DNA from: Desulfosporosinus acididurans
GTDB taxonomy: Bacteria; Bacillota; Desulfitobacteriia; Desulfitobacteriales; Desulfitobacteriaceae
Length of the DNA: 64,000 bases
Direction of reading: 5' to 3'
Assembly (NCBI RefSeq): GCF_001029285.1
Contig: NZ_LDZY01000005.1
Span: 1-64,000, forward strand
The notes under the pieces are model-generated. The model was not told the origin of the DNA. It ran no database searches and saw nothing but the letters and a program-made list of their open reading frames with translations. The position numbers were made by a program, and so were the translations under genes. Numbering within the stretch: position 1 is the stretch's first letter; the number at the start of each line of letters is the position of its first letter. Positions 20,781 through 29,683 of this stretch are shown here, one piece after another.

Positions 20781-22280
20781 TCAGGGATGTGCTGCGCTCC
20801 GGTCATGACATTTGTGACAGGAGTCTGCCCCCTGCTCCAGAAGCGATTGCTGACAGGTGCTTCCATAAACTAATGGGATATTAAAGGTTTTGCCTGTGAC
20901 ACGACTGGTCTGCAGCCAACTATTTCCTTCATGGCGAATAAACGGCAACTCCTCCCCTTTTCCTGTAACAAGAATCTCATCGCCAAGTTTCAGAACAGGA
21001 AATTTAGGATTGGTTAATTGTTCTTCAAAGGCTAAGTCCTTAGGGGTGACAATCTTCTTGGTCTTGGGGAGAGTGTTTTTTGTGCCATGACAATCTTGGC
21101 ATTGAAGGTGAACTGCATCATATTGAGAGGTGTGGAGTAGGTTGTCTCCCATGACATCCTGCCTTGTGTGACAATCAATGCAATCCAGGCTGACTTCACA
21201 TTGAGCGAAGATTTCTCCGGGCAAATAATAATCTTTGACCCGGTCCAGATAATTGGTATCTCCGGATTTCCAGTCACTAATGACTTTGGTCATATCTGAA
21301 CGAAACGCAAAACTCATTTTGAGCGGGTCATGATTTCCTTGATTGTGGCACTGATTACACTGGGTATAAGGAATTTGGGTTGTCAAGCTGTGGGTCATCC
21401 CCCAGCCGAGATCAGCAGATCTCATGGTCGTATCTGTCCCGATATAAGTATGCATAGGGTTCGTTAAAACATGACATACCTCGCACCCGTTCGCTGTAAT
21501 CTTATTCTCTGTTTGAGATTTAACTCCGGTTTGGCTGCCCTGGAGAGAATGATTATCAGGAGTCGGAAAAGCTGGGATCTCCCCTCCGTTTTGATGACAT
21601 TGACTCAAACAGTTCTGCTGAAACGCCTTCTGATTAGGCTGTCCCTGCAGCGGATTGGGATAAAGCGCTGCTGACTGCCCCTTGACAAGTCCCGGCACCT
21701 CATTCGTTTTATCAAATCCGAACATCCGGCGTACAACACTGAGCTCGCCGGCCTTTGTGGACATAATCGACGTTTTCACGAGATCGACTTCATTTTTTGC
21801 TGTTTCCTGGTTGCCTGAGTGACAGGACATCCCATTCTCGGCCTTTCCCCCGCAGCTTAAAGAAACTGCGTTCAAGGAACCCGGGTGTCCCCCGCCATAC
21901 ATTTGATCATGGGCCGTCGCTTTGTCCAAAGAGAGAGGATTTCCCCCGTGGCAAGCGACACAGCCAAACGTATTACTGGGATGAGAGCTGGAGATTTCCT
22001 CTATACCGATGTGACAGGTTTTGCAGCGCTCAACGTTCCCGTTGGGAAGAACCAGATCAATGACCTCAGGCTTGCGATTTTGAAGGCTCTTGATTTCTTG
22101 CTGGAGTTGAGTTCTCTTTGCTGTATCTTTGGTTGAATTTAATTGAGCCTGCAGTCTTACTGCCTGTTCTTTAAAATACTCTCGTTGATATTGAGCCCAA
22201 TTTGGAGTGCTGCCTTGAATAAAAAGAATTAAAATAACAAGACTCAAGAAAAGGCTTGCTAAGATCAGAGCTTTTTTCAT
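20781..22280 (-). CDS. Multihaem cytochrome c, membrane-anchored
   Basis: Extracytoplasmic electron carrier of about 499 residues with an N-terminal membrane anchor (KKALILASLFLSLVILILF). Seven canonical haem sites are seen (CKTCH, CVACH, CEVCH, CNQCH, CIDCH, CQDCH, CHKCH). There is also one CxxxCH (CLSQCH) and one further SCH site (CGGKAENGMSCH) with unusual spacing, so 7 to 9 haems. An ATG at 22280 overlapping the preceding stop (ATGA) is preferred to the upstream start. It is the last gene of the operon and probably the electron donor or acceptor of the Rieske/b6 part. Confidence 0.85.
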   Translation of the reverse strand: MKKALILASLFLSLVILILFIQGSTPNWAQYQREYFKEQAVRLQAQLNSTKDTAKRTQLQQEIKSLQNRKPEVIDLVLPNGNVERCKTCHIGIEEISSSHPSNTFGCVACHGGNPLSLDKATAHDQMYGGGHPGSLNAVSLSCGGKAENGMSCHSGNQETAKNEVDLVKTSIMSTKAGELSVVRRMFGFDKTNEVPGLVKGQSAALYPNPLQGQPNQKAFQQNCLSQCHQNGGEIPAFPTPDNHSLQGSQTGVKSQTENKITANGCEVCHVLTNPMHTYIGTDTTMRSADLGWGMTHSLTTQIPYTQCNQCHNQGNHDPLKMSFAFRSDMTKVISDWKSGDTNYLDRVKDYYLPGEIFAQCEVSLDCIDCHTRQDVMGDNLLHTSQYDAVHLQCQDCHGTKNTLPKTKKIVTPKDLAFEEQLTNPKFPVLKLGDEILVTGKGEELPFIRHEGNSWLQTSRVTGKTFNIPLVYGSTCQQSLLEQGADSCHKCHDRSAAHP

Positions 22281-22648
22281 AGGCGAGTCCACCACAATTC
22301 CTTCACCATAAACCAAAACAGAAGAATCAAGACCAAGCTAAAAAGAGCGCTGAAAATCCTCATTCCCCATTTGTCCCCCCAATAATGAGCAGCCCATGGC
22401 ACCCCGGCCAGCCCGATAATAATTAAGGCGGGAACTGCTAAAGCTCCCAGCCAAGGCGGAAGATACAGCAGCAGCACTTGAAATGGCCCAAAAATCCAGG
22501 GTGCTGTTGCATGAGGAACTGCCGGAGCCAAATTGCTCGTTCCCACACCTGGAGAAATTTTAAAAGCCAATAAAGTACAAAGGATCAAAAAAATCAACGC
22601 GGCAATTCCTTCATTTTCTTTAAGATTATTAATGGGTGAACGAGCCAT
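22277..22648 (-). CDS. Subunit-IV-like membrane protein of a b6-type cytochrome complex
   Basis: A 123-residue protein with three predicted membrane helices. Between helices it reads HATAPWIFGPFQVLLLYLPP, the place where subunit IV/PetD has its PEW-type quinone-site loop. Here the motif is APW, so quinone chemistry may differ. It sits directly after cytochrome b6 and before the multihaem cytochrome, with four-base coupling to the latter. Assignment rests on position, topology and that loop. Confidence 0.65.
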   Translation of the reverse strand: MARSPINNLKENEGIAALIFLILCTLLAFKISPGVGTSNLAPAVPHATAPWIFGPFQVLLLYLPPWLGALAVPALIIIGLAGVPWAAHYWGDKWGMRIFSALFSLVLILLFWFMVKELWWTRL

Positions 22649-22662
22649 TATATCTCCTTCCT

Positions 22663-23388
22663 TTAGAGAGGGCGTACTCCCCCGTCACGGCGAATCCGCC
22701 AAAAATGATAGAGCTGCAGCCATAACATTGCCAAGGGTAAGACCGCACAGTGCCAGACATAGACAACCAAAGTGCTGCCGCTTAAGGCAGAAGGTTCGCC
22801 TAAGGCGATCTGCGCCAAGGCAGTTCCCAAACCTGGAATCTGCTTCAATAGATTAGCGGCAACCGTTGCCGCCGCACCGCTTTCTTGGGAACCAACCAGC
22901 AGGTAACCTGTAAAATCTAAAACCAAGACAAGTACCAGCAATCCTACGCCAACGAGCCAATTAAGCTGTCTCGGGGGCTTGTAGGAATGAGTCCATACGA
23001 CTCTTACCATATGCAAGTTAACGGTTACAATCATAATTTGTGCCGACCAATAATGCAAATTTCTAATGATATACCCGTAAGGAATTACCGACCCGATCGT
23101 AAGGACACTGCTGTAGCCTGAACTTGCACCGGGTTGATAGTGAAACATTAAAAGAATCCCTGTAATTCCAAGCATTAGGAATGCCAAAAATGACAGTCCT
23201 CCGAGGCAAAACGTATAGAATACCGAAAGTACTCGCTCAGAGATAAATCTCGGCCGCACGTGATTAATAAAATTATTCCGCGAATTTCCTTCCAACTTAT
23301 GTACTGGCGATAGTTTCTCTTTTTGATCATGGTCAGACATCAGTATTGGCCTTTGAACCGAAGTTTCCGTTTCTTTAGAATCCTTCAT
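22663..23388 (-). CDS. Cytochrome b6-type subunit
   Basis: Dihaem membrane cytochrome of 241 residues, four helices. The haem histidines are HYWSAQIMIVTVNLH in one helix (13 residues between) and HCAVLPLAMLWLQLYH in another. The latter has 14 residues between, the spacing of b6 rather than mitochondrial b. A 50-residue charged N-terminus precedes helix A. The gene overlaps the Rieske gene by four bases. It is predicted to oxidise or reduce quinone together with the Rieske protein and the subunit-IV-like protein. Confidence 0.88.
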   Translation of the reverse strand: MKDSKETETSVQRPILMSDHDQKEKLSPVHKLEGNSRNNFINHVRPRFISERVLSVFYTFCLGGLSFLAFLMLGITGILLMFHYQPGASSGYSSVLTIGSVIPYGYIIRNLHYWSAQIMIVTVNLHMVRVVWTHSYKPPRQLNWLVGVGLLVLVLVLDFTGYLLVGSQESGAAATVAANLLKQIPGLGTALAQIALGEPSALSGSTLVVYVWHCAVLPLAMLWLQLYHFWRIRRDGGVRPL

Positions 23389-23837
23389 AGCCGCACATCC
23401 AATCCAACTTGCTTCTCTGTATTAATGATTAAGGAACCATCCGCCTTCCGTTCCACAGCTGCCCTTGGCAAGGCTTTAGGGGCAGGCCCTGCTACAGGCC
23501 TGCCCTCTGTGTCGTAAATACTGCCATGGCAGGGACACAACCATTGTTTCCTTTCCAGATGATATGTCACTTCGCAGCCCAAATGAGTACAGGTCGCAAC
23601 CAAAGCGGCAATGCCTTGATCATCCCGCTTAACCCAAACACGTGAATTGGGAACATGCTGCCAATCCGTTTTTTCCTCAAGGCTTTTGGCATAAGACACT
23701 AAGGGCGAGCGCGGTTGATCCTCTTTGCTCATCAAATAGTCAACAAGAGGTTTGACACTTAACCCACCCACCGCAACCATTCCGGCCCAAGCAAACCGTA
23801 ATACTGTCCGTCTTGAGCACTCTATTTGCTTAGCCAT
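23385..23837 (-). CDS. Rieske iron-sulfur protein
   Basis: About 150 residues. A twin-arginine signal-anchor (CSRRTVLRFAWAGMVAVGG) is followed by the Rieske [2Fe-2S] ligands CTHLGC and CPCHGS. The open frame extends upstream to 24080, but those residues overlap the NrfD-type gene and do not look like a Rieske protein. The ATG at 23837, behind AAAGGG, is the start. It is the extracytoplasmic electron carrier of the b6-like complex. Confidence 0.92.
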   Translation of the reverse strand: MAKQIECSRRTVLRFAWAGMVAVGGLSVKPLVDYLMSKEDQPRSPLVSYAKSLEEKTDWQHVPNSRVWVKRDDQGIAALVATCTHLGCEVTYHLERKQWLCPCHGSIYDTEGRPVAGPAPKALPRAAVERKADGSLIINTEKQVGLDVRL

Positions 23838-23893
23838 CCTTCTCAGCCCTTTCTTCCTTAGATCTACAAGTCGGAGCGGTTCCCATACCTCAC

Positions 23894-24790
23894 CTAAAAC
23901 CAACGACTCCACTGCCCAGCGAAGGTTATAATATAGCGGACAAAAAAACCGCCAAAGAGAACGAGGAAACTGCTGCCAATGGTTACTGGCAATGTCCACC
24001 GAACTGATATTTTCTCTTTTAGTTCCAAGTACTCCAGGGAAAAGGGCACAATTAGCCCTAAGCCCACAATCAAAAACCAAAAAATCATAGCAAACTGTCC
24101 GTAGATCATACTCCCGTAAGCCTCAGCAATACTCAGAGAACTCAATCTGCCCATTACAATCATTACCAATAGTATAAAACATTCTAAAACGATGAGTAAA
24201 GCATCGGCCTTCGTCAATAACTGTAGTTCCCTATGCCTGGCCCTTTGCCAGGGACTAAGAGCAGAGAACAAAATCACCGTTGCTGCCCCGGTAGACAAAG
24301 CTGATACTAAAAAGAGCACCGGAAGCAAGGGGGCTGTCCATAAGGGGCGTGCTGCAGCATTGAGAAGAAGACCGGTATATGATGCCACCCCTACCGACAA
24401 GAAGGGAATTACTTTGGCCAATCGTTTTTTCCATTGTTCTAAAGATTTAGTTTCTCCTATAATTTGAAACTTCTGAGGTAGCCAAAGATAAAGATAGACA
24501 ACACTCAGCAGAGTGAACAAAAGAATCGCCCAACTACCATAAGACATGGGGGACCTTACCTGTAAAGTCATAAATAACCGATAGAAGTTAAAAGGGCTTC
24601 CTAAATCGAGTAGCAGCACACCCAGCCCTAAGGAAATTGGAAAGGGTGAAATAAATGCCCCCCAGCGGCTAACCCTTTCAAAATCATTACCACCCAAGAG
24701 CAAGGCCAGGTTCGAGGTAATCATGGCTCCTGCGCTCACGCCGGCAGTAAAGAGGTAAATAACAATTAATATGCCCCAAGTTATTTCCAC
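23894..24790 (-). CDS. NrfD/PsrC-type membrane subunit
   Basis: A 298-residue polytopic protein (8-9 helices) of the NrfD/PsrC family, which exchanges electrons and protons between a quinone pool and an extracytoplasmic Fe-S subunit. Family features are the start (WGILIVIYLFTAGVSAGAMI), then SRWGAFISPFPISLGLGVLLLDLGSPF and SPMSYGSWAILLF. A GTG start behind AGGAGGGG is likely. Third part of the molybdoenzyme-FeS-NrfD module. Confidence 0.88.
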   Translation of the reverse strand: MEITWGILIVIYLFTAGVSAGAMITSNLALLLGGNDFERVSRWGAFISPFPISLGLGVLLLDLGSPFNFYRLFMTLQVRSPMSYGSWAILLFTLLSVVYLYLWLPQKFQIIGETKSLEQWKKRLAKVIPFLSVGVASYTGLLLNAAARPLWTAPLLPVLFLVSALSTGAATVILFSALSPWQRARHRELQLLTKADALLIVLECFILLVMIVMGRLSSLSIAEAYGSMIYGQFAMIFWFLIVGLGLIVPFSLEYLELKEKISVRWTLPVTIGSSFLVLFGGFFVRYIITFAGQWSRWF

Positions 24791-24811: not shown

Positions 24812-25387
24812 TTAATTGCCCTCCGGTATTTCCGGAACCACATCATCAATATAATAAATATTGGGACCGGTTCCCACATACGTTAGCAACTGACGGCTTG
24901 GATATTTGGCGAGTAATTTAGCCACAACACTTTCGGGATCATTAAGATCACCAGCCTGCCGTGATTTTCCCAGACAAGTTTGGACACAAGCCGGCTTTAA
25001 GCCTTGCTCCAAACGCTGCAGACAAAACGTGCATTTATCAGCTTTGCCTGTCTCCGGATTAGCAAAACGAGCATCATAAGGACAAGCAGTAAGACAATAT
25101 TTACACCCGATACATTTACTAGTTTCAACAATGACTATACCATCGGGACGTTTTTGGGACGCTCCTGTAGGGCATACGGATACACAGGGAGGGTGATCAC
25201 AATGCATACAATTTCCGGGTTGAAAAACTTCTTTAACCTTGGGAAATTCACCCTGTACACCGCTGCTTTTGACCCAATTCCGTGTCTTACCGATGGGCAC
25301 GTCATTTTCTGCGCGGCACGCGACCATACAGGCATCGCAGTCGATACAGCGCGAAGTGATAATGACAAATCCCATGCGAACTGTCAT
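24812..25387 (-). CDS. 4Fe-4S electron-transfer subunit (PsrB/NrfC-type)
   Basis: A 191-residue protein with four cubane motifs: CIDCDACMVACRAENDVP, CMHCDHPPCVSVCPTGA, CIGCKYCLTACPYDARF and CTFCLQRLEQGLKPACVQTC. This is the usual order in PsrB, NrfC and DmsB. It wires the molybdopterin subunit to the NrfD membrane subunit. AGGAGGG precedes the ATG. Confidence 0.93.
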   Translation of the reverse strand: MTVRMGFVIITSRCIDCDACMVACRAENDVPIGKTRNWVKSSGVQGEFPKVKEVFQPGNCMHCDHPPCVSVCPTGASQKRPDGIVIVETSKCIGCKYCLTACPYDARFANPETGKADKCTFCLQRLEQGLKPACVQTCLGKSRQAGDLNDPESVVAKLLAKYPSRQLLTYVGTGPNIYYIDDVVPEIPEGN

Positions 25388-25398
25388 AGTGTTCCCTC

Positions 25399-27618
25399 CT
25401 ACGCTTTACTTACCGTTACAAAGGTTTCACTCAAAGCCGAACTACCCGAGAGAGGATCTGTAATAGTCTTGTGAAGAGCAGAATCGCTGGCTCCCAGTTT
25501 ATAAGCCGATTTAAGCCCTTTGCTCACATGACCGAATCCTCCGACCATAAAGATACAATCCGGCCGGATTCCCTCAGTAACCTTCGCTTTAATTGTCACT
25601 TTTCCCACATCACTTTCCAGCACAACGTCATCATCCGTCTTGATTCCTAGCTTAGCAGCTACCGAAGTATGCAGCCAGGCCCGATTTTCTGAGAAAACTT
25701 CTAATAACCAACGATTGTTTTGAGTGAACATCTGAGTGTGTTGAGCCGTTTTTCCCGTTAAAAGATAATAATGGTCTTTCGGAGGACGAGGCGGCTCATC
25801 CCAAGCGGGCACCGCTTTTTTGCCCATTTGAGCCATAATACTCGACGATATTTCAATTTTTCCGCTGCTGGTTTGAAACTCAAAGTCTTTGGAATGATCT
25901 TTTTTGAAATTTGGTACAACATAATGCCCAGCCTTCTCTAACTCATCTAGAGTAATTGAGAAGGGTTTAAGTTGTTTGGCCAAAAGATCTCGTTCGTCCT
26001 TATAAGGAAGAAAATCGCCCAGGCCTAATTTGTCAGCCAGTTCTTTGTAAATCATCAAGCTGCTTTTCGTATCATATAAAGGTTCAATCACCGGCTGTCT
26101 GATAAAGATTTTGCTGCCAATAGGGATCAACCCGTCATAACGTTCCAAATAACTGGATTCGGGCAAAATTACATCGGCATAATAGGCGGTATCACTTGCT
26201 TGAATGTCAATGACAGCGACAAAATCCAACTTCATAAAAGCATTGATGGTTTTCTGTCGTTCCGGTATCGAAAGAATTGGATTCTGCCGAGAAATTAACC
26301 ACCCTTTAGCCTCATAAGGTTTGCCGGACAAGATATTATCCCGCATAGTTTGGATTACACCATACGATAAGGGGACCAAGGGATACTGCCAGGGAACACC
26401 GTCAAGTCGTATTCCCTGGGCCTGGGGGAAGGGGGGATGAGACAAAACTCCGAGCTTAGCCGTATTGATTTCCTGATCGGGAATAAGTCCCCCCGGCTGA
26501 GCCCAATTGCCGATCAAAGCATTCAATACAGCTATTGCCCGCTCGGTCTGAAATGAGTTTTTAAAATTGGATGTACGCCAGTTAGGATGAGCAATAGCGG
26601 CAGGAGCAGCTGCAGCAAACTCACGGGCGATCCTCTCTATCGTCGCTGCAGGAATCTCGCACTTTTGCTCCGCCCATTTCGGCGTGTAATCCTTGACTTC
26701 TTGGACTAAATCATCAAAACCTTGAGTATAGGTAGTGATAAAGTCCTTCTTGAACAGTTTTTCTTTAATAATGATATTAATTATTGCTAAGAAGAAGGCG
26801 GAATCCGTTCCCGGGCGTATTGGCAGCCATTCAGTGGCTTTGGACGCTGTTTTACTGAAACGCGGATCAAGGACCACAACCTTAGTCCCCCTGGCAATCA
26901 TCTCGATCATTTCCTGAGTTTCATTATTGGAGATTCCCTCTGCCAGATTTCTGCCCGCAAAGATCATATACTTGCAATTCTTATAATCCGTTCCTGGTTG
27001 AGGAACACCGTAGGTATATAAAAAACCGGTGGTCATTGCATTGAAACATAGACTTCTCTGGGTGCCATAATTGGGGGAACCGTAGGCTTTGAGCAAAATC
27101 TCGAAAAAAGGCTGGGACAAATTGTCTGTGGAGTTAAACATCATGGCTTTTGCCCCATACTTATCCTTTATTTTTTTCATCTGATCCGCCGTATACGTCA
27201 GAGCTTCATCCCATGAAGCTCTGCGCCACAATCCGCTTCCCCGCGCCCCTGCCCGGATAAGAGGAAATTTAATACGATCAGGGCTGTATAACGTCTCAAT
27301 TCCCGCATTTCCCCGCGGACAAAGTTTGCCGACATTATTGGGATGATCGGGATTGCCTTCTAACTTTTTCACAATGCCGTTATCGACCTTGGCAATAACG
27401 CCGCAGCGCCAGACACACTGCTCACAGATTGTAGTAACCTTCTGGAGCTCAGAACTCTCATTTGCCGCTGTCTTTAACGCAGAATGCTCCACAGCAAACA
27501 TATTATCCGGCGCTAAGAACCCCAGGCCAGCCGATACACCCAAAGCGGCACCGGCGGCAGCACCTTTAATAAATTGCCGGCGGCTGAACAATTGGTCCCA
27601 GGTATAGACTTTGGACAT
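25399..27618 (-). CDS. Molybdopterin oxidoreductase catalytic subunit (PsrA/PhsA-like)
   Basis: About 739-residue DMSO-reductase-family enzyme exported folded by Tat (SRRQFIKGAAAGAALG). The N-terminal [4Fe-4S] ligands are CEQCVWRCGV to GKLCPRGNAG. The probable Mo-ligand cysteine is in RSLCFNAMTT, a position shared with polysulfide/thiosulfate reductases. NWRTSNFKNS, ILPESSYLERYDG and TGKTAQHTQ mark later domains. AAAGGAGG before the ATG at 27618 decides the start. Polysulfide, thiosulfate or another sulfur compound is the favoured substrate because of the neighbours, but arsenate or similar oxyanions cannot be excluded. Confidence 0.88.
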   Translation of the reverse strand: MSKVYTWDQLFSRRQFIKGAAAGAALGVSAGLGFLAPDNMFAVEHSALKTAANESSELQKVTTICEQCVWRCGVIAKVDNGIVKKLEGNPDHPNNVGKLCPRGNAGIETLYSPDRIKFPLIRAGARGSGLWRRASWDEALTYTADQMKKIKDKYGAKAMMFNSTDNLSQPFFEILLKAYGSPNYGTQRSLCFNAMTTGFLYTYGVPQPGTDYKNCKYMIFAGRNLAEGISNNETQEMIEMIARGTKVVVLDPRFSKTASKATEWLPIRPGTDSAFFLAIINIIIKEKLFKKDFITTYTQGFDDLVQEVKDYTPKWAEQKCEIPAATIERIAREFAAAAPAAIAHPNWRTSNFKNSFQTERAIAVLNALIGNWAQPGGLIPDQEINTAKLGVLSHPPFPQAQGIRLDGVPWQYPLVPLSYGVIQTMRDNILSGKPYEAKGWLISRQNPILSIPERQKTINAFMKLDFVAVIDIQASDTAYYADVILPESSYLERYDGLIPIGSKIFIRQPVIEPLYDTKSSLMIYKELADKLGLGDFLPYKDERDLLAKQLKPFSITLDELEKAGHYVVPNFKKDHSKDFEFQTSSGKIEISSSIMAQMGKKAVPAWDEPPRPPKDHYYLLTGKTAQHTQMFTQNNRWLLEVFSENRAWLHTSVAAKLGIKTDDDVVLESDVGKVTIKAKVTEGIRPDCIFMVGGFGHVSKGLKSAYKLGASDSALHKTITDPLSGSSALSETFVTVSKA

Positions 27619-27651
27619 AGTCAAACCTCCTTTCCACATTAACCATAAAGT

Positions 27652-28242
27652 TTAGTTCAAATTTAGGTTCTTAGCTGATTTTACTGGGGAATCAACGGAG
27701 ACACCTTTTGAATTTTCGGAAACCTTGGAGCCAACATAAAATACAAGCGTACAGAGAACAAAGAGCGAGATAAAGAGCCAATGGTTCACATGAAGCAGTT
27801 CCTCAAGGGATTGCTGCCCATAGACCCCAATGGTAGATATTTTTAAAAAGATTGATTGATAGGTAGCCCCAAAGAGAACACCGCCGGCAAGAAAACCTAA
27901 AACTCCAGGAATTAAATAGTCCAAATTTCCCTGACCACAACCTGTGATCAAAGTACCTGGTCATGTCCCGGCTAACGCCATACCAACTCCAAACAGAAGT
28001 CCACCCAGGAGATTGCCGACAATATAGGTCGAGGACATTTGGTCCAATTGAATAAAACCCAGATCTTTCAAGGCATAAAGACCCACAAGTCCCACTGAAA
28101 TCCCCGTCATCATAAATTTCATGATGGTGTTATCCTTAAATCGAAATTGGTTGACAATTCGATGATAATGACCTAAACCGGCTTTTTGCAGCGCGAAAGC
28201 GAAGAAAAAGCCAATAATTAAAGGAATAACATAGGTAGTCAT
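27652..28242 (-). CDS. Selenocysteine-containing YeeE/YedE sulfur-transport protein
   Basis: Read through an in-frame TGA (27963-27961), the frame gives one 196-residue membrane protein. The upstream part ends GVGMALAGT and the downstream part begins PGTLITGCGQGN. The TGA falls exactly on the family's conserved Cys of the G-x-CPGT motif, so residue 94 is predicted to be selenocysteine. A SECIS hairpin follows at the standard spacing. GGGAGGG nine bases before the ATG at 28242 sets the start, one base after the previous stop. Family members transport thiosulfate or related sulfur (TsuA/YeeE). It pairs with the Cys-type YeeE gene upstream. Confidence 0.88.
27932..27963 (-). promoter_or_regulatory. 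Bacterial SECIS element after the UGA codon
   Basis: Seventeen bases after the UGA lies the apical loop AGGUU, closed by a 7-bp stem UGAUCAC / GUGGUCA (one G-U pair). A G at the second loop position and a 17-base spacing match the E. coli fdhF SECIS. An outer UGACCA / UGGUCA repeat could extend an alternative fold. Confidence 0.85.
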
Positions 28243-28243
28243 C

Positions 28244-28774
28244 TTAATAATCCCTCCCATATAAAAGTTTAGTTGTAATAATTCCGGACACAAATAAGCC
28301 AACAATAAATAATAAACCTGCCGGTGAAAGCTGCATTGTCCCGGATATGGCTAAGCCGCTCGTGCATCCGCCCGCAATCCCGGCAGCATATTCAATAATC
28401 ATGCCGCCGATAAAAATCAATACCCACCGTTTTAACTTACTGGGCCCATAATTTTGGATCCACAACTGATCTGGCATCAAGCGAACTTTAAAATCACGGG
28501 ACCATAAACTTGAGACGAGAGCGCCAAGGATCATGCCAATGAACAGAATAATTTGGAAACTCAGTACAGGAGGCATTTGAAATTTGAAATACATAGAGTT
28601 CGCTAAGCTAGAATGGAACGTCTTTAAAAGCATGCTGTCAATGCTTTCGAGACCTCCTGAAGAACCGATCGTCTTATCAACCAGAACATAGGAGGCTATG
28701 CCAGTTACTCCCAGGAGGAAACCCGCGGCCCATGGGGACCATGTTTTTTCTTTCATTTTTTCGATAAAAGACAC
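28244..28774 (-). CDS. YeeE/YedE-family membrane protein (Cys form)
   Basis: A 176-residue polytopic protein, one half of a YeeE/YedE-type sulfur transporter. GGMIIEYAAGIAGGCTSGLAISG carries the conserved cysteine motif GGCTSG. Four or five membrane helices are evident. A GTG start follows the stop of the trihaem cytochrome directly, with AAAGGGGG upstream. The second half is the selenoprotein gene that follows one base later, so the two probably assemble into one transporter for a sulfur species. Confidence 0.85.
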   Translation of the reverse strand: MSFIEKMKEKTWSPWAAGFLLGVTGIASYVLVDKTIGSSGGLESIDSMLLKTFHSSLANSMYFKFQMPPVLSFQIILFIGMILGALVSSLWSRDFKVRLMPDQLWIQNYGPSKLKRWVLIFIGGMIIEYAAGIAGGCTSGLAISGTMQLSPAGLLFIVGLFVSGIITTKLLYGRDY

Positions 28775-29683
28775 TTAAGCTTCCCCCTTTCCCGTATTCT
28801 TCTCTGTCTCAGCCTCAACTAAGGATATTAATTGTTTAAGTTCTTTTTCATCCATCCTTTGCAAGTGAATCAGGATATTCTCCGGCACTTGAGACAAGAA
28901 ATGCAAGGTTTGCCGTCCATTTGGATCTTCTAGTATACTTTTAATCAGCAAAACCGTCTCTATATCCCCGGCAAGCAATTGTCTGAATACGTCTTGAACT
29001 TCCGGCGGCAAAGTATTAAAGGGAACGTTTCTCTGCCTTCCTTTGAGGTAAGCCCAAGGCCATAGACCTTTTTTCCATTTCCAAAGCAAAATCGTCAAAA
29101 CCAAAAGGATCAGAATATCGGCTGCTATAATAGACCAAGCAAGCCAGGATAGTTTGCCATTATTATTAAAGTCAAGAACATCAAAATTCGGATTAGAACT
29201 CGGCGGAACTTGAGTTGCTGCCGGAGAAGGAGCGACGGATCCCGTCTCTGCAGAAGAAGTCGTCCCTGCAGCGGAGGAACTTCCTTTCGAGCTATTTACT
29301 GAAGCATTGGACGTTGTTGCTGATCCTCCGTATTTGGCAACTCTAGCCGGAGCATCCGTTGGATGACAAGAGACACACGATTGATCCGGCTGGGCTAGGG
29401 GGTTAGCAATAATCCCGGCATGAGCCTTTGTCTTATCAGTTTCCGTTGCCACACCCAAGTGACAAGCCTGACAGAAGTCTCCAAAGGAGTGCTGTGTATG
29501 CCAATCTCCCTTTTTGGAAACAGGATCGGCTCCTTGAACCTCGTGACACGTTTTACAGGAAGACGTTGACGCCCCACAGGCAGCTTGGGCGTCTTTGGGA
29601 CTTGACAGTCCTGAAAATCCGAAGATAACTATTCCGCCAATCCCCAAGATTAAGGCAATAATAGACATTTTTAACCGCTTCAC
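28775..29683 (-). CDS. Trihaem membrane cytochrome c
   Basis: A 302-residue protein with a signal peptide (IIALILGIGGIVIFGFSG). Three haem sites follow (CKTCH, CQACH, CVSCH) within the first 110 residues. A Ser/Ala/Pro linker leads to a transmembrane helix (SWLAWSIIAADILILLVLTI) and a cytoplasmic helical tail of about 90 residues. The haem domain is outside. A GTG start behind GAGGTGAGGAG begins the operon. It may pass electrons to the molybdoenzyme or serve the YeeE pair. The cytoplasmic tail has no recognised domain. Confidence 0.85.
   Translation of the reverse strand: MKRLKMSIIALILGIGGIVIFGFSGLSSPKDAQAACGASTSSCKTCHEVQGADPVSKKGDWHTQHSFGDFCQACHLGVATETDKTKAHAGIIANPLAQPDQSCVSCHPTDAPARVAKYGGSATTSNASVNSSKGSSSAAGTTSSAETGSVAPSPAATQVPPSSNPNFDVLDFNNNGKLSWLAWSIIAADILILLVLTILLWKWKKGLWPWAYLKGRQRNVPFNTLPPEVQDVFRQLLAGDIETVLLIKSILEDPNGRQTLHFLSQVPENILIHLQRMDEKELKQLISLVEAETEKNTGKGEA

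Follow-up and report, generated by a model that had tools for sequence, protein, structure and literature searches.

An in-frame TGA codon interrupts a YeeE/YedE reading frame

The locus described here raises the question whether two adjoining short open reading frames encode two proteins or a single selenoprotein. We analyzed a stretch of 64,000 nucleotides of Desulfosporosinus acididurans (contig NZ_LDZY01000005.1), referred to below as the window. The open reading frames 27961-28305 and 27652-27951 on the minus strand were found to share one frame, and a TGA codon at 27961-27963 is all that separates them. Direct reading bore out the claim that this TGA stands at the Cys conserved in the family. 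The complete gene (27652-28242, minus strand) comprises 197 codons and is interrupted exactly at the Cys position of AGT-U-PGT. When TGA is read as U, translation from the ATG at 28242 results in 196 residues, with U94 within AGT-U-PGTLITGCG. A change of the genetic code was rejected, because TGA serves as a normal stop in the window, where it ends 12 of the 41 mechanically called ORFs of at least 200 aa.

The interrupted gene was assigned to the YeeE/YedE family by its PF04143 score (83.5 bits, cut-off 27). A phmmer comparison with TsuA (YeeE) of Spirochaeta thermophila (PDB 6leo, 8j4c, 8k1r) gave 6e-10. The sequence-only reading had called the product a YeeE/YedE transporter. The family stood, the full size did not: the gene encodes a single half, of PmpB type, of a two-gene transporter. 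It is homologous to the N-terminal half of TsuA and aligns to residues 6-103. Counted on this alignment, Sec94 falls on Cys91, the second relay cysteine. Three cysteines are lined up across the membrane in TsuA, and a thiosulfate relay was proposed for them (PMC11073785); Cys91 and Cys293 were described as indispensable (PMC11582611). The three relay cysteines 22, 91 and 293 are not all retained here. The equivalent of Cys22 is Gly, that of Cys91 is Sec, and a Cys of the 293 type is found, by motif, in the partner protein.

This partner, a pmpA-type half with the motif AGGCTSG, is encoded immediately upstream (28244-28774, minus strand) and scored 73 bits against PF04143, where it covers the second half of the profile (cut-off 27, profile positions 167-309). 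A phmmer search of the partner against the PDB revealed no TsuA structure and nothing else of relevance. Among 17 named loci, 16 hold upstream DNA, and in all 16, one of them a Cys form, pmpA adjoins pmpB. The arrangement is similar to the described PmpA/PmpB pairs. There, two adjacent half genes encode the subunits: PmpB corresponds to the N-terminal half and carries the Cys91 site, PmpA corresponds to the C-terminal half and carries the Cys293 site, and a heterodimer was proposed (PMC11582611). In contrast to these, the halves in the window are longer (196 and 176 aa compared with about 130), the PmpB site is occupied by Sec, and the genes are part of a respiratory operon. The window protein differs from TsuA in its half size, in the missing Cys22 and in having Sec for Cys. 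A further difference concerns YeeD (TsuB), which is needed along with YeeE in E. coli (PMC11073785); no tusA- or tsuB-like gene was noted in the window operon.

More specific models scored below their cut-offs. The TsuA models NF052577 and NF041049 gave 52.5 bits (cut-off 400) and 43 bits (cut-off 645), and the YedE selenium models gave 27.3 and 22.9 bits for the pmpB half, far below cut-off. An AlphaFold2 model built from 17 close sequences reached a pLDDT of 40.5 and was not used; the fold is therefore assigned from sequence. The genome contains another PF04143 gene (G000:C11:37470-38624), a full-length YedE-like frame of 368 codons without internal stop; three TGAs counted in its match fall outside the frame.

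The TGA codon is conserved in two clades

Searches were carried out in overlapping sets of genomes. Within the genus, 17 of 29 genomes contained a homologue, with TGA inside in 16 and without it in one. Two of these 16 rows also count a TAG; the frames remain open beyond the UGA up to ends of their own. At the family level (45 genomes), TGA was present in 18 of 19 close homologues (at least 72% identity), and four weak matches were without it. The order (73 genomes) yielded 26 matches in 25 genomes, 19 of the matches with TGA. No further TGA member was found at 1e-15 in the class (82 genomes). At the same threshold, a phylum sample of 398 genomes had matches in 27 (29 matches, nine with TGA); five of the nine were new and came from four other families. 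In total, 24 distinct genomes from six families and two separate clades carry TGA at codon 94. Because the same codon is TGA in all of these, a sequencing error is very unlikely. The named loci overlap with the 24 genomes and were not added to this count. They carry TGA in 16 of 17 cases and TGC in one, and belong to Desulfosporosinus species, Acididesulfobacillus acetoxydans, Peptococcaceae bacterium CEB3 and unclassified Bacillota. A tblastn search of plasmid records resulted in one weak match.

The two clades are distinguished by the residues on the far side of the UGA. Clade 1 (19 TGA genes) has LITGCG, clade 2 (five genes) CVAGGG or CLAGGG. The Sec motif itself is GFUPGT in clade 2, compared with GTUPGT in the window. 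A tree was calculated from 46 rows (24 Sec, 22 Cys), leaving out the weak matches L036-L039 and L081-L083 and the second copies L107 and L108. It requires a minimum of three changes between Sec and Cys, which means that simple inheritance of Sec from the ancestor of the group does not account for the pattern. The Cys form L025 is nested in a group of 20 rows (support 99/98) of which the other 19 are Sec; support for its exact neighbour is modest (93/76). Nine gene pairs were compared on both sides of the UGA. Amino-acid change was low before and after it in all nine (pN 0.012-0.165 before, 0.018-0.207 after, pS 0.36-0.87). In seven of the nine, nonsynonymous change was greater after the UGA, though still low.

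A hairpin follows the UGA

A hairpin with a 7-bp stem, UGAUCAC/GUGGUCA, and the loop AGGUU had been claimed downstream of the UGA, with 17 nt from UGA to loop. We found it as described within the coding sequence at 27932-27950 (minus strand). This 19-nt element begins at nucleotide 11 downstream of the UGA, and the minimum-energy fold extends the stem to 27929-27953 (-12.2 kcal/mol). The energy alone is not striking, with a z score of -1.59 against dinucleotide shuffles and 15 of 200 shuffles as good. Synonymous recoding is a weak test here, as recoded sequences matched the fold energy in 4-53% of draws per gene across the 24 TGA genes. Support beyond chance comes instead from conservation of the TGA, covariation of the hairpin and synonymous constraint.

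Covariation was counted in TGA genes alone, which make up 24 rows, 23 of them distinct. The pair cells of the hairpin were formed in 96.3%, and changes on both sides occurred in four of the seven pairs. The covariation score was 0.297, compared with 0.139 (SD 0.023) for shuffled and at most 0.137 for slid alignments. Clades 1 and 2 differ in stem bases and in amino acids, yet the stem pairs in both. The covariation is mostly this one split between the clades and thus counts as one strong event rather than many. In L087 of clade 2, the outer pairs are not formed in this register. The GG of the loop is at the same place in 24 of 24 genes (23 distinct). In the 19 genes of clade 1, the mean share of the dominant codon was 0.94 for codons +4 to +10 and 0.61 elsewhere, and among 152 overlapping windows of seven codons this one varied least at synonymous sites.

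Published bSECIS criteria are a loop of 3-9 nt with G in the first two loop positions, a stem of 4-16 bp, a spacing of 16-37 nt and an energy of at most -7.5 (PMC13188914). All 24 TGA genes, including that of the window, lie within all four. The criteria are lenient, since two of four Cys relatives at the Sec94 site pass as well. L025 and L078 had no hairpin within these limits; in the nested L025, which has TGC, the stem is lost. The GC-rich L079 and L089 had one, and that of L079 (G066:C131:8190-8708) is strong and at the same place, which perhaps reflects a recent change from Sec to Cys or chance in GC-rich sequence. The innermost stem pair is broken in three of the four Cys relatives. An Rfam scan of the gene gave a chance match only (mgtC leader, E 8.7).

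The genome encodes the selenium machinery

The genome (4.64 Mb, 47 contigs) was searched for selA, selB, selC and selD, as the sequence-only reading had proposed, and all were present, selD in three copies. By profile search, selB scored above its family cut-off, and a tRNA-Sec with the anticodon UCA is encoded about 1 kb from it. All three selD copies were above cut-off and two have a TGA inside; in both of these, the predicted loop is likewise 17 nt after the UGA. The selD loci are G000:C10:85584-86510, G000:C7:190800-191717 and G000:C13:16672-17577. The sel genes are located on contigs other than that of the transporter gene.

SelB was found in six of the eight genomes searched, and these six include the genomes that carry the Cys forms L078 and L080. 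It was not found in the genomes of the Cys relatives L025 (85% complete) and L079 (83% complete). For L025, this fits a reversion from Sec to Cys after loss of the machinery. The missing SelB could instead reflect the incomplete assembly, and Cys forms also occur alongside SelB. Genome G010 (L109, L115) contains two selB genes.

Conservation of the TGA, the hairpin, the sel genes and full-length Cys homologues that align across the TGA support the reading of Sec in place of Cys. Three results had been named in advance as speaking against it, namely a genome without sel genes, homologues that end at this stop, and TGT or TGC instead of TGA; none of these was found. As judged from the sequence data, it is highly probable that Sec is inserted in this YeeE/YedE half and that the protein is a SECIS-dependent selenoprotein.

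The transporter pair is part of a respiratory operon

The genes of the operon are all on the minus strand. A cytochrome c with three CxxCH motifs and what seems to be a membrane segment (28775-29683, read from the sequence) is a conserved upstream neighbour and is followed by pmpA and pmpB(Sec). Next is a Tat-type molybdopterin oxidoreductase of PsrA/PhsA type (25399-27639). Its nearest structure, PDB 2vpw (4.6e-134), was deposited as thiosulfate reductase; against the NCBIfam PhsA model (NF012032) it scored 613.4 bits, below the cut-off of 694. A 4Fe-4S ferredoxin subunit similar to TtrB/NrfC/DsrO (24812-25387) and an NrfD/PsrC-type membrane subunit (23894-24790, PF03916 152 bits) come after it. 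They are followed by a Rieske iron-sulfur protein (23385-24080, PF00355 40.2 bits on 23388-23960), the true start of which is probably downstream of 24080, and a b6-type cytochrome b (22663-23388, PF00033). The latter is related to ExtP (NF040969, 258.8 bits, below the cut-off of 290). A small membrane protein without family match (22277-22648), which also occurs in the operon of relatives, takes the position of extQ in Geobacter. The last gene encodes a multihaem cytochrome c with seven CxxCH by motif count (20781-22316), weakly related to ExtM (NF040943, 132 bits, cut-off 800).

By tblastn, which does not give exact starts, the operon was present in the 17 named loci as far as these reach, including the Cys form L060. 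It was complete in L124, from the other family of the order. In clade 2, all ten operon parts were found in L117 and L120. At the threshold used, L118 had no match for NrfD or the small membrane protein and L119 none for NrfD, and L116 had no match for the molybdoenzyme, ferredoxin or NrfD between pmpB and the Rieske gene. The Cys form L121 has the entire operon; thus the operon does not require Sec. In the Cys forms L122 and L123, the transporter pair is located beside other molybdoenzymes.

The cytochrome b near ExtP and the multihaem cytochrome distantly like ExtM link the module to the ext cluster of Geobacter. The cluster of Geobacter sulfurreducens also contains Rieske, cytochrome b and multihaem cytochrome genes and has a predicted selenoprotein of its own, ExtKL; its ExtI influences the reduction of selenite and tellurite (PMC5877670). 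In contrast to the window, its description lists no YeeE gene, molybdoenzyme or NrfD, and the window proteins fall below the ext family cut-offs.

Relation to earlier predictions

A Sec-containing YeeE/YedE protein has been predicted before: two reviews list one member of the family, WP_012471001.1 (PF04143), as a single example (PMC13188914, PMC9312934). As here, one Sec is predicted, and the entry describes no characterisation, site, operon or distribution. Its motif is GUxSG (PMC13188914), in contrast to GTUPGT in the window. TsuA itself has GCASG at Cys91, so GUxSG could represent either TsuA site. The sequence-only reading knew of no characterised system of this kind. This held for the open-access literature, where we found no characterised case, but a predicted member with a different motif had already been listed. 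No earlier report of Sec at the Cys91 site, its distribution or its operon was found in that literature. YeeE/YedE does not appear in the main texts of PMC2398784, PMC5029168 and PMC12013277, and PMC12170894 contained nothing relevant. A few parts of transporters have been predicted to hold Sec (PMC13188914).

A probable second Sec site in half-size family members

A phylum-wide PF04143 search, with matches listed down to about E 2e-29, revealed a TGA inside the match in 17 of the genomes listed. Sixteen of these were taken, and G175, which has several stops, was left out. The 16 regions taken, from half-size genes among the matches listed, comprised ten with putative Sec in the motif YGUNIG, five with Cys there and one without such a motif. 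The YGUNIG genes (L161-L166, L168-L171) occur in at least ten genomes from two families. In the one protein aligned, L166, the Sec residue corresponds to Cys293 of TsuA. A hairpin loop was found at 27 nt in ten of ten YGUNIG genes; the stretch after the UGA is near-invariant (seven distinct sequences among the ten), but some hairpin that attains the energy limit is likewise present in four of the five Cys relatives. In L162 and L171 a thioredoxin-reductase-like frame comes after the gene, and in the Cys forms L158-L160 a TusA-like frame comes before it, both as read from translations. No earlier report of Sec at the Cys293 position (GUNIG) was found in the open-access literature.

Thus, Sec seems to take the place of one relay cysteine in some lineages and of another in others. 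A broader view is tentative and, in our estimate, rather doubtful: YeeE/YedE proteins might be chalcogen relays in which selenium replaces different cysteines. The selenol would then carry sulfane sulfur covalently (Se-S), in a group transfer coupled to the respiratory chain rather than a passive, hydrogen-bonded passage of ions.

Alternative explanations

A standard annotator sees two ORFs at this locus. The TGA might accordingly be a true stop that splits the gene into two short proteins or marks a decaying pseudogene, as TGA is an ordinary stop in the window and a GTG far downstream (codon 152) has GAGG 11 nt before it. This reading is extremely improbable. The same TGA is kept across six families, amino-acid change is low on both of its sides, the window gene has no in-frame ATG downstream of it, and the split would fall inside the conserved CPGT motif. 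The UGA might also be read through by a suppressor or near-cognate tRNA that inserts Cys, Trp or another residue, and relatives with Cys at position 94 do exist. A conserved, covarying hairpin with a GG loop at SECIS distance, the complete Sec machinery in the genome and the innermost stem pair broken in most of the Cys relatives all argue against such read-through, and we consider it very improbable. Selenocysteine is therefore the preferred reading of codon 94.

Other alternatives accept the selenoprotein and concern its task. The transporter might carry, or detoxify, selenium or tellurium species and not sulfur. This is possible, although we regard it as the less probable case. The resemblance of the cytochrome b and multihaem protein to ExtP and ExtM would fit with it, given the effect of ExtI on selenite and tellurite reduction (PMC5877670), and relatives of YedE were proposed as selenium transporters (PMC9312934). 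However, the TsuA models outscore the YedE selenium models, all of them below cut-off, the sel genes are on other contigs, the genome has its separate YedE-like gene, and the molybdoenzyme is nearest to the thiosulfate reductase structure. Acididesulfobacillus acetoxydans, which bears the gene (L059), uses selenate, but also sulfur and thiosulfate as electron acceptors; it disproportionates both of the latter and reduces neither polysulfide nor sulfite (PMC8982180). Its physiology is compatible with thiosulfate as substrate and is no proof of it. Sec94 might further be the redox partner of a nearby Cys, in which case the protein would be less a plain transporter than a redox-gated carrier or sensor. 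Cys102 (codon 27937-27939, minus strand) is indeed present in 19 of 19 Sec proteins of clade 1 and in none of the four Cys relatives. But clade 2 has Gly there and, in five of five, a Cys at +4 instead, which is also found in the distant Cys form L090. Moreover, the hairpin includes the Cys102 codon, and constraint on the RNA could therefore account for this residue. We consider a redox pair unlikely and retain a sulfur transporter with Sec as the preferred reading.

Proposed role of Sec94

The UGA at 27961-27963 would be read as selenocysteine under the direction of the hairpin at 27932-27950, together with SelB and tRNA-Sec. The PmpB-type half would pair with the PmpA-type half encoded upstream, and the two would move a sulfur species across the membrane. 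Outside the cytoplasm, the PsrA/PhsA-like molybdoenzyme may process a sulfur compound such as thiosulfate or polysulfide, and the transporter would act beside this enzyme and the bc-type electron chain of the same operon. A selenol is more acidic and more nucleophilic than a thiol. As Sec94 occupies the relay position of Cys91 in TsuA, its selenol probably captures the sulfane sulfur of thiosulfate or of a related species at this central site and hands it on through the membrane. The substrate named by the sequence-only reading, thiosulfate or sulfane sulfur, draws its support from homology; on balance, we favour thiosulfate or another sulfur species.

Standard annotation probably breaks genes of this kind in two or cuts them short, and a step of sulfur respiration in Desulfosporosinus and its relatives would then go unnoticed. 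Most selenoproteins of known role are redox enzymes. A selenol in the permeation path of a membrane transporter, kept across lineages and next to a respiratory molybdoenzyme, would, if true, suggest that the relay cysteine takes part in chemistry, capturing sulfane sulfur as a nucleophile, and does more than form hydrogen bonds. The natural Sec variant would also allow the TsuA mechanism to be tested cleanly at a single residue, with Sec, Cys, Ser or Ala.
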